A stretch of DNA of 56,798 nucleotides from Candidatus Gastranaerophilales bacterium (GTDB taxonomy: Bacteria; Cyanobacteriota; Vampirovibrionia; Gastranaerophilales; Gastranaerophilaceae). Position numbers and translations under genes: made by a program. The notes beneath the pieces were generated by a model. That model did no database searches and was not told the origin of the DNA. It was given only the letters and a program-made list of their open reading frames with translations. Shown here in pieces: positions 14,420 to 56,798 of this stretch. The stretch lies in assembly GCA_947624975.1 (NCBI GenBank), contig CANQMP010000012.1:1-56798 (forward strand), read 5' to 3'. The first letter of the stretch is position 1. Every line of letters starts with the position of its first letter.

Positions 14420-15409
14420 ATGGGTGCTTATATTGCGATTTTTGCATTAATTTTTATTGTCGGAATTTGTATCGGCAGTTTTTTAAATGTTGTGATATTA
14501 AGGAGTTTAAGCGAGGAATCAATAGTGTTTCCGGCATCGAAGTGCCCGAAATGTCAAACACCGCTTAAATGGTGGCATAATATACCGATTATTTCTTATA
14601 TATTTTTAAAAGGAAAATGTGCATTCTGCAAAGAGCCGATAAGCATTCAATATCCTATAATCGAACTTTTTACGGGTATAATTTTTACATTAATCTTTTG
14701 GAAATACGGTTTTTCTTTTGACACTTTGTTCTTATGGGCAATATCGTCGATGTTTGTTGTAATTGCGGGAACCGACATAAAAGAAAAGGTTGTATTTGAT
14801 GTTCATACGTATATTTTAATGGGTTTGGGCTTTGCCTATGCAATTTATAAAACGGCATTAATTCTGATAAATATGAATAATGCGGGAATTCCGTTTGTAT
14901 TAACGGGAGAATTTTTAATGGATAATCCCATAACGCTTTCGATATTCGGTGCGTTGGCGGGTGCTTTAATTTTGGAAATTTTTGCAAGGTTCGGGTATGT
15001 GGTTGCGGGAACGAGAGCATTCGGCGAAGGTGACACGCTTATTGCCGCAGGTTTGGGTGCGGTTTTCGGATGGAAAAGCTTATTGTGGGTGCTTGTTTTA
15101 AGCGTTGTAATTCAGGTTATAATGTTCTTTCCGTTCTTTATCAAGCGTCTTATCGAGGATAAGGAGTGGAAAACTCTTGTAACATTTACGGGATTTGTTG
15201 TTTATGCAATAGCGTTTTATGTTATACAGAAGCTTGAATTATTGTCGGGAAGAAGTGTCCTGCTGTCGTTGATTTTATCGTTAATTCTTGCTTTTCTCGG
15301 AATTTTGTCTTGTATAATGATACTTCGCGGTATGAAAAACAAATCAAAGACTTATATTCCGTTTGGGCCTGCACTTGTTCTTGCGGCGCTGGTTTTTCTT
15401 CTGTGGTAA
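14420..15409 (+). CDS. pilD: Type IV prepilin leader peptidase/N-methyltransferase
   Basis: This integral-membrane aspartyl protease cleaves prepilin leaders and methylates the new N-terminus. The 329-residue protein has the N-terminal GSFLNVVI and a zinc-binding loop with CPKC (Cys 42, 45) and CAFC (Cys 67, 70), typical of the methyltransferase half. Catalytic Asp119 (GTDIKEKVVFD) and Asp205 in the GxGD motif (FGEGD) are visible. About eight membrane helices are evident. GGAG precedes the ATG. It follows sigF by 10 bp and would mature all four prepilins in this window. Confidence 0.93.
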   Translation: MGAYIAIFALIFIVGICIGSFLNVVILRSLSEESIVFPASKCPKCQTPLKWWHNIPIISYIFLKGKCAFCKEPISIQYPIIELFTGIIFTLIFWKYGFSFDTLFLWAISSMFVVIAGTDIKEKVVFDVHTYILMGLGFAYAIYKTALILINMNNAGIPFVLTGEFLMDNPITLSIFGALAGALILEIFARFGYVVAGTRAFGEGDTLIAAGLGAVFGWKSLLWVLVLSVVIQVIMFFPFFIKRLIEDKEWKTLVTFTGFVVYAIAFYVIQKLELLSGRSVLLSLILSLILAFLGILSCIMILRGMKNKSKTYIPFGPALVLAALVFLLW

Positions 15410-41441: not shown

Positions 41442-41469
41442 TTGCAATTTTGTCAAAATAGTGTATAAT
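41442..41469 (+). promoter_or_regulatory. Promoter of the poly-G prepilin gene 1
   Basis: TTGCAA (41442-41447) and TATAAT (41464-41469) are spaced by 16 bp. A 5' leader of about 27 bases follows, with AGGAGA 6 bp before the ATG. The second poly-G prepilin gene has the same 16-bp arrangement. The gene is therefore equipped for transcription and translation whatever the state of the G tract. Confidence 0.7.
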
Positions 41470-41502
41470 ATTTATGTAGTTTAGCAAAAAAGGAGAAATA
41501 TT

Positions 41503-42376
41503 ATGAAAAAGTACACTACAAAAACGTTAAACCCATCGGGGGGGGGGGGGGATTGCTCATAGCAAGGACTTTGCGGGTATTATAGCCTCAAAACCCGGTA
41601 GTTTTGCCTTTACATTGGCGGAAGTTCTCATTACTCTCGCTGTCATAGGTGTTGTAGCGGCGATGACTATACCTATGTTGGTTTCTAATTATCAAAAAAA
41701 GGTATTCGTTACACGACTTCAAAGAACATATAATACACTTTCTAATGCTTTTGTCAGTGCTCAAGTTGATTACGGAGATTCTTCTAAATGGGATTATGAA
41801 GGTGTAGGGGTAGACCCGACTGTGTCCGACGAAAATAAAATTCTAGCTTATAATTCTGTGGTGAGTTGTATTCAAAAATATATTCTGCCATACTTGGCAA
41901 AAGGATATACCTTTAATCCTGAAAGAAACAAAAAACTGGCAGATTTGAGTTATAGTTCAGATCTATTATATCGTAGCGGTTCTCCTATGATATCTCTATC
42001 ATCTAATGTACCGCCTTATTTAATTTTAAATGACGGCACATGGATATTCTTTTCATATCTTACTTTTGGTGGTCAAGATTCTGATGGAAATGAACACCCA
42101 TATAGAAGTTATGGTTTAAGAATGATGGTAGATATTAACGGACCCAAACCTCCTAATACATTAGGTAGAGATATTTATATGATGTATATGTTTTTCAGTG
42201 CAAATTCTAAACTTATTATGGCTACGCCTGTGTCGATTAATTTAGGAACATTATTGATTACTTATAAAAATACCTCACGAGAAGATCTTCTTGAAGATTG
42301 TAAAACTTCCGGACAATATTGTGGAGCGTTAATACAAAGAGATGGCTGGCAAATAAAAGACGACTATCCATGGTAA
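41503..42376 (+). CDS. Phase-variable prepilin, out of frame (OFF) as assembled
   Basis: AGGAGA and an ATG at 41503 open a frame encoding MKKYTTKTLNPSGGGG, interrupted by 14 consecutive G (41538-41551), after which the frame meets a TAG at 41560. The pilin frame with FTLAEVLITLAVIGVV starts at about 41606 and runs to 42376, one base out of step. With 13 G (or 10, or 16) a single 290-residue ORF results: a 35-residue leader ending PGSFA, cleavage A|F, Glu5, a hydrophobic helix, and a soluble domain ending DGWQIKDDYPW. The end is typical of pilins in this lineage. A terminator follows. The intact flanking signals argue that this is a switchable gene and not a decayed one; a miscount of the homopolymer in assembly is the main alternative. 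Confidence 0.8.
41538..41551 (+). repeat. G14 homopolymer in the prepilin leader (contingency tract)
   Basis: Fourteen uninterrupted G in an AT-rich genome, placed 36 bp after the ATG and within codons for Ser-Gly-Gly-Gly-Gly. Slippage by one base switches the downstream frame on or off. The count is uncertain by one or two because such tracts are hard to sequence. Confidence 0.85.
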
Positions 42377-42408
42377 ATTTCCAAAAAACTTTTCATAACA
42401 ATAAATAA

Positions 42409-42434
42409 GTCGGGCTAAAACCCGACCTTTTTTT
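42409..42434 (+). terminator. Terminator of prepilin gene 1
   Basis: GTCGGG (42409-42414), loop CTAAAA, CCCGAC (42421-42426), then C and seven T. It is 32 bp after the pilin stop and just ahead of repeat island B. Confidence 0.88.
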
Positions 42435-42760
42435 GTATAACCCACCCCAACCCTCCCTTGAAAAAGGAGGGAGCAAGACTGCACCCCACCCCATTCGAAA
42501 TTTCTAAATTCGCATGCTCATTAAGAAATTTCCCTCTCGCAAAACGATACTTAATCGTTTTGCTCGGCAGAGTCCATTTGGGGAGGGAAATTATTTGTCA
42601 TTGCGAGCGAATGCGAAGCAATCCAGCTAATTTGCACGTAGTGCCGATTTATTTAACCCCTCACCCTAGCCCTCTCCCGCAGGGGGAGAGGGAATTTATA
42701 TATATTTCCGCACGCAGTGCCGAAATGAACCTCTCACTTTTCACTTCTCACTTTTCACCA
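42435..42760. repeat. Mosaic intergenic repeat island B
   Basis: No gene is supported here. The island is made of palindromic modules. They are CCCTCC(C)TT/AAGGAGGG (about 42449-42472), an A/T hairpin AAATTTCTAAATT...TTAAGAAATTT (42498-42531), CTCGCAAAACGAT/ATCGTTTTGC (42536-42563), the CATTGCGAGCGAATGCGAAG module (42599-42625), GCACGTAGTGC (42634-42644), CCCTCTCCCGC/GGGGGAGAGGG (42670-42692), and TCTCACTTTTCAC runs (42732-42757). The segment 42480-42694 is repeated in inverse orientation at 56300-56520. Open frames through it encode only low-information repeat translations. Confidence 0.8.
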
Positions 42761-46819: not shown

Positions 46820-46848
46820 TTGACAAATTGATATTTATATCGTATAAT
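46820..46848 (+). promoter_or_regulatory. Consensus promoter and possible operator of prepilin gene 46883
   Basis: TTGACA (46820-46825) and TATAAT (46843-46848) are spaced by 17 bp, a perfect sigma-70 consensus, the strongest promoter in the window. Hexamers TATCAA (46809-46814), TTGATA (46828-46833) and TATCAA (46857-46862) surround it and may be sites for the divergent XRE repressor; that part is inferred. Confidence 0.8.
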
Positions 46849-46882
46849 GTACATGTTATCAAATAAGAAAGGTGGTATTTTT

Positions 46883-47554
46883 ATGAAAAAATCAAACGCA
46901 TTTACTTTAGCGGAAGTATTGATTACTCTTGGTATTATCGGTGTTGTTGCGGCAATGACGATGCCTACTTTGATTAATCAGACAAACGGTGCTCAATTCA
47001 GAGCAGGATTTAAAAAGGAATTATCCGTAATTTCACAGGCAGCAGCATTGAATCAGGCTTTAGAGGACTGGGATTTCTCAGGTTTGCAAAAATCTGATGG
47101 TTACAGACTCTCAGATTTACTAAAAGAACGTACGAATGTTATTAATGAAGTTGATACATCCAAGTTACCAACAGACTATAAACCAAGTTGGAATCTGGCA
47201 GATTTTGACCTTAGTCCAAATGACAAACTAGCGGATTCCAGCACCAATGTTAAATATTTTTTATTTAATGACGGTTCTATGTTCGTATTTGATAACGATG
47301 ATGAAGGTTGTACAGATGTTAAAGTCGGTACGGGGACAAATCATCACTGTCACGGATATTTCGATGTAAACGGTTTTAAAGGCCCAAATAAAGTTACTAC
47401 ATGTGATAATACCTCAGCTACAGAAGCTGACTGCTATGTAAAATCACCTTCAGATATATTCCCTGTAATATTCTACGATCAGACGGTTTTACCCGGTTCA
47501 AAAGCAGGACAGGCTGTTTTGGCTGACAGAACAACCAAAACAGCAAGTGAATAA
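46883..47554 (+). CDS. Type IV/II prepilin (223 aa)
   Basis: This prepilin has a short leader, MKKSNA, followed by FTLAEVLITLGIIGVVAAM with Glu at mature position 5 and a hydrophobic helix to about residue 30. The soluble domain contains motifs shared by this pilin family: NDKLADSS and FLFNDGSMFVFDNDD, GYFDVNGFKGPNKV and SDIFPVIFYDQTV. AAAGGTGG lies 8 bp before the ATG; a longer frame from 46847 is not credible. The leader has no homopolymer, so this pilin would be made constitutively, subject to its regulator. It ends with a hairpin and terminator. Confidence 0.9.
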   Translation: MKKSNAFTLAEVLITLGIIGVVAAMTMPTLINQTNGAQFRAGFKKELSVISQAAALNQALEDWDFSGLQKSDGYRLSDLLKERTNVINEVDTSKLPTDYKPSWNLADFDLSPNDKLADSSTNVKYFLFNDGSMFVFDNDDEGCTDVKVGTGTNHHCHGYFDVNGFKGPNKVTTCDNTSATEADCYVKSPSDIFPVIFYDQTVLPGSKAGQAVLADRTTKTASE

Positions 47555-56686: not shown

Positions 56687-56798
56687 ATGAAGAAGATTAC
56701 TACAACGGTATTTAACCCATCGGGGGGGGGGGGATTTTTCTCCTAGCAAGGGTTTCGATGGTATTCTAACCTCAAAAAATAAGAATTTCGCGTTTACT
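56687..56798 (+). CDS. Phase-variable prepilin, 5' part only, out of frame (OFF) as assembled
   Basis: The gene is cut by the window edge. ATG at 56687 with AAAGGA upstream opens MKKITTTVFNPSGGG, then a run of 12 G (56722-56733). As assembled the frame hits TAG at 56744. With 11 G the frame continues through DFSPSKGFDGILTSK and NKNFA to FT at the window end, the beginning of the A|FTLAE cleavage region. The restored leader is 35 residues, the same as in gene 1, with 20 identical positions. What follows lies outside the window, so the pilin body is inferred from the leader and cleavage start. Confidence 0.75.
56722..56733 (+). repeat. G12 homopolymer in the second prepilin leader (contingency tract)
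   Basis: Twelve uninterrupted G at the same codon position (after Asn-Pro-Ser) as in prepilin gene 1. In-frame lengths would be 11 or 14 G here, against 10, 13 or 16 in gene 1, because the next bases differ. The count is subject to assembly error. Confidence 0.83.

Follow-up and report, generated by a model that had tools for sequence, protein, structure and literature searches.

The prepilin gene at 41503-42376 of this 56,798-nucleotide stretch (the window, contig C12 of a 1.91 Mb genome in 59 contigs) raises the question of whether the length of a G tract between its start codon and its leader-peptidase site decides if a pilin is made. The ATG (41503-41505) is followed by the leader MKKYTTKTLNPS and a run of 14 G (41538-41551), after which the sequence continues GAT TGC TCA TAG. 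At this length the ATG frame yields a product of 19 aa (MKKYTTKTLNPSGGGGDCS), as the prepilin frame, which reads A-F-T-L-A-E from 41606 and stops at 42376, is offset from it by one base; with 13 G, leader and prepilin are fused into a single 290-aa ORF. Sequence and translations thus bear out the arrangement described in the first-pass annotation, with one small correction: the early stop had been placed after four more codons, and is in fact the fourth codon past four Gly codons. Given the window's own G-to-G frequency, the number of runs of 14 G or more that it should contain is about 3e-5, so this tract did not arise by chance.

Features of the prepilin locus and associated elements (window positions)
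Feature	Position	Strand	Remark
Promoter-like TTGCAA, 16-nt spacer, TATAAT	41442..41469	+	box position common to family leaders
Shine-Dalgarno AAGGAGA	41490..41496	+	read from sequence
ATG and 5' leader codons MKKYTTKTLNP, with first two bases of Ser codon	41503..41537	+	
14-G tract	41538..41551	+	prepilin in frame at 13 G (n = 1 mod 3)
Leader 3' part, prepilin frame IAHSKDFAGIIASKPGSF	41552..41605	+	at 14 G, its TAG stops translation from the ATG
Prepilin body AFTLAEVLITLAVIGVVAAMT..., 256 aa plus stop	41606..42376	+	leader-peptidase site A|FTLAE
Terminator-like hairpin, 3' of prepilin gene	42407..42428	+	
Second switch copy (putative): ATG 56687, leader, 12 G (56722-56733), prepilin start	56687..56798	+	out of frame, 1 G too many; truncated by contig end
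Prepilin peptidase (Peptidase_A24, PF01478)	14738..15124	+	sole copy found in genome
Prepilin gene without a tract, contrast case	46847..47554	+	

The product of 41606..42376 matches TIGR02532 at 17.4 bits (cut-off 16.3) and, like type IV prepilins, has a leader-peptidase motif with Glu at +5 and a hydrophobic N-terminal helix. Structure modelling gave a 55-residue N-terminal helix followed by a beta region (mean pLDDT 86), and a Foldseek search with this model returned no match at E <= 0.001, including no solved pilin for the globular domain. The protein is presumably surface-exposed. The upstream TTGCAA-16-TATAAT pair, initially called a good promoter, is not significant when taken alone (6 promoter-like sites against 5.6 in shuffled sequence), but the TATAAT box occupies the identical position in 27/27 family leaders with enough upstream sequence, the 41503 locus included. 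Downstream, the intergenic region 42440-42740 is repeat-like (CCCTCTCCCGCAGGGGGAGAGGG), and similar sequence adjoins other tracts in the same genome.

This genome contains 74 G runs of at least nine that are preceded by another base. Examination of the surrounding sequence stretches for genes revealed that at least 34 of these tracts sit in prepilin leaders of one design, comprising a TATAAT box, a purine-rich Shine-Dalgarno-like stretch and an ATG exactly 35 nt 5' of the tract, the distance also found at 41503. The leader follows the pattern MKKITISALNPS-G(n)-FSPSKGFEGILTSK and continues as AFTLAEVLITLAVIGVVA, with a longer spacer ahead of the cleavage site in some paralogues. A length-switched prepilin, as first suggested for this locus, remains the best reading, but as a property of at least 34 such genes rather than of a single one. 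Tract lengths in the prepilins span 10-16, and otherwise identical 34-nt leaders carry 13, 14 and 11 G in one set, and 12 and 13 G in another. Of the prepilins, 30 have their start on the contig and could thus be scored; 6 of these are in frame, 18 (the 41503 gene included) need one G fewer and 6 need one more; the one-G-fewer class is over-represented against equal thirds (chi-square p = 0.008, gene relatedness being ignored). Whether in or out of frame, the ORF bodies are intact (206-487 aa), with the exception of one cut by the end of its contig stretch. Closest paralogues display Ka/Ks values of 0.10-0.40, indicative of purifying selection, and low values are also seen where both members of a pair are out of frame: 0.29 for the window gene and L107, 0.17 for L068 and L074, and 0.20 for L109 and L113. 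Given intact bodies and such Ka/Ks values, the prepilin copies do not look dead.

Several prepilins and tracts of this genome show further peculiarities. The cleavage motif is doubled (FTLAEGATHVAL...R.AFTLAEVLITL) in L103 (884-1699, minus strand), L064, L034, L036, L042, L046 and L054, a pattern resembling the insertion of a short coding unit behind the first FTLAE. In L102 (1044) and L105 (1045) the tract reads G10-A-GG, a 13-long run with a single interrupting A; such a break would tend to lock the gene out of frame. The longest tract seen, a run of 26 G at L088 (1004), is in frame within a 300-aa ORF.

About 15 of the remaining tracts in this genome interrupt readable glycan or surface genes, encoding GT2, GT8, GT61, polysialyltransferase-like, polysaccharide deacetylase, FkbM methyltransferase, TupA-like and DUF4422 proteins and, on our reading of the translations, epimerases. 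Surface-glycan genes are the usual targets of phase variation. From the table of states, we read all three frames as being represented roughly equally amongst them. Contigs C5, C8 and C10 each have a terminus that falls exactly on a tract, and the sequence beyond is unrepeated in the stretches of this genome that were compared; these breaks hint at several tract lengths amongst the reads, though PCR stutter would give an identical picture, and PCR is reported to inflate phase variant frequencies 20-35 fold (PMC4965091). MutS is present in this genome, and loss of mismatch repair was rejected as the cause of its longer tracts.

Relatives were scanned with heuristic rules, in which the start was picked by a nearby purine-rich site and a prepilin motif had to follow within 480 nt, so that single assignments may err. 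Tracts are present in 315 of the 383 genomes of the order, with the high counts falling in one family and a same-genus maximum of 176 G9+ tracts (G011). Exactly 10 long are 169/176 tracts in G011 and 73/77 in G015, where 30/30 tracts examined proved to lie in prepilin leaders. When tract-bearing prepilins of relatives were sampled without regard to tract length, 67 of 82 proved to carry a run of 10, one base short, and 3 were in frame. Taking every copy of length 11 (G11/C11) together, 27 of 43 are in frame. All 7 scored prepilin tracts of G082, from another genus, are 11 long, one too many, and in G138, from a third genus, 3/3 scored G10 copies need one more. Several prepilins of G009 have an in-frame length of 10 and do carry 10, which indicates that this length is not tied to the out-of-frame state. 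Three near-orthologous pairs from G009 and G012 differ in length, with 9 against 10 G at 99.3% DNA identity, 9 against 10 G again at 98.7%, and C11 in frame (ON) against C10 out of frame (OFF) at 90%. The runs occur as G or C, with the tract in three codon phases, and the ATG frame of G-type leaders mostly ends 4-8 nt past the tract.

In the relatives, the bases on either side of the tract are retained in both leader types (CG10C, GC10G). Once reverse-complemented, the C-type upstream flank is similar to the G-type downstream flank; this similarity is only suggestive, and the idea that C-type leaders are an inverted G-type element was not retained. Several G-type leaders have a Shine-Dalgarno sequence, GGAGCAA, complementary to TTGCTCC just past the tract, a pairing that could possibly form a hairpin over the start. 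Four loci of G067 (L256, L262, L268 and L277) have N's inside their G tracts, whose lengths are unreadable. Searching genome_contigs with peptide patterns gave no confirmed relative of this pilin, and the leader-plus-tract DNA pattern matched only outside the lineage, by record title, in genome_contigs and viral_contigs, the viral_contigs match reading as unrelated GC-rich DNA; phage records gave no match.

Judged from these genome sequences, the probable explanation is slipped-strand phase variation, OFF by default, of a very large pilin repertoire. Replication slippage would add or remove G's in the tract. At 13 G, or any length of 1 mod 3, the ATG frame would read through the leader into the prepilin, and the single prepilin peptidase could cleave the product at the A|FTLAE site; at other lengths translation would end a few codons past the tract and no pilin would be made. 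Changes in length are predicted to be frequent and reversible, and the in-frame state to supply pilus subunits. The length-switch reading is strengthened by paralogues that share a 34-nt leader but carry 11, 13 or 14 G, by downstream ORFs that are intact and under selection, by the G11 copies that are in frame in relatives, and by the near-orthologous pairs of unequal tract length. As at contingency loci, the repeat lies within an ORF that is under selection and its length sets the frame, and ON and OFF lengths both exist at related loci (6/30 in frame in this genome; the C11 and C10 near-orthologues). Under slipped-strand phase variation, the unequal lengths, the undamaged bodies, the presence of both ON and OFF copies and the tracts in glycan genes all find an explanation.

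The main rival is programmed recoding, in which slippage of RNA polymerase, or frameshifting by the ribosome, on the G or C run would yield a constant in-frame fraction from out-of-frame genes, and selection would hold the length with no switch; it has to be weighed because the relatives' tracts are so uniform and yet out of frame. The 67/82 relatives' prepilins held at 10, one short, across three codon phases and in both G and C runs, the early stop 4-8 nt past most G-type tracts and the 7/7 tracts one too long in G082 are all as recoding would have it. The same numbers weaken phase variation, since independent free switching should give a more even mix than 67/82, 7/7 or the skew behind p = 0.008. 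Against recoding, the offset varies by lineage, with +1 needed in most relatives and -1 in G082 and mostly in this genome; copies are in frame at G11, at C11 and in some cases at 10; near-orthologues are unequal in length and frame; and in this genome the glycan genes occupy all three states and prepilin tracts run from 10 to 16. A fixed out-of-frame run holds for most relatives, but neither for this genome nor for the direction of the shift. Overall, we regard recoding as unlikely. The uniformity itself is compatible with switching: in C. jejuni an insertion bias at G8-G9 gives way to a deletion bias at G10-G11 (PMC8224891), and where such biases meet, a resting length of about 9-10 follows. 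The frame would then be set so that this resting length is mostly OFF. Phase variation alone does not explain why one offset recurs so often within a genome, which may reflect common descent of the leaders together with selection against constant expression.

That the 14 is a miscount of a true in-frame length is very improbable. Long homopolymers do invite errors, contigs are broken at tracts and N's lie beside tracts in some relatives' assemblies, but error would have to run at +1 in this genome and at -1 in many independently assembled relatives, whilst the 26-G run is resolved in frame and all three states coexist within this genome. Scarcely credible is a family of decaying pseudogenes in which the tract is the lesion: the majority of copies are indeed out of frame, but their bodies are intact, Ka/Ks is well below 1 even for pairs that are both out of frame, and promoter box and leader are kept.

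Homopolymer phase variation as such is well known. As in Neisseria pilC1/pilC2, where a homopolymer inside the reading frame drives phase variation (PMC5953494), a pilus gene would here be ON or OFF by frame; PilC, however, is a protein associated with the pilus and exists in two copies, whereas this family comprises pilin-like subunits in at least 34 copies, with the tract between the ATG and the leader-peptidase site. Likeness to the poly-G/C contingency loci of Campylobacter jejuni lies in the G/C tracts of surface genes, which are 7-13 long in that species (PMC8224891, PMC4965091); its 12-29 tract genes per strain (PMC8224891) compare with 74 tracts of at least nine in this genome and a maximum of 176 in a relative, with many of these tracts lying in prepilins. 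The use of a family of copies as the source of a variable pilin recalls the antigenic variation of Neisseria, in which pilE recombines with silent pilS cassettes (PMC5953494), except that here each copy is equipped with a promoter-like box, an ATG and a tract of its own. The conserved out-of-frame homopolymer also resembles genes with programmed transcriptional slippage, which usually rely on A or T runs (PMC3711429), unlike the G or C runs of this large gene family. The open literature that we searched, which is not the whole literature, yielded no account of tract-switched pilins in Gastranaerophilales. What is new is the place of the tract, between the ATG and the leader-peptidase site of pilin subunits, the copy number and the mostly-OFF default. 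We advance more tentatively, as a possibility that we hold in some doubt, that throughout the family dozens to more than 100 pilins are kept at a nearly constant homopolymer length that leaves them OFF by default, to be expressed when, rarely, the DNA slips in an individual cell or through RNA slippage built into the G/C run, a stochastic display whose size and default state would not have been described before.

Most of the large homopolymer phasomes known come from pathogens, Campylobacter and Neisseria among them. This pathogen bias may stem from database bias, according to a 2025 review (PMC11868660), and the set described here is larger and found in an uncultured, probably gut-dwelling lineage, where it is aimed at pilin subunits and surface glycans. 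With the switch repeated in at least 34 paralogous prepilins and joined by the glycan-gene tracts, the cell surface would become a combinatorial, mostly-OFF repertoire from which each cell probably switches on a few pilins by chance, and the benefit may be surface variation in the face of phages or the host. If this is true, consensus genomes misreport these pilins as broken genes, metagenome reads could test the switching at once, and pilus display in these bacteria would be a per-cell lottery.
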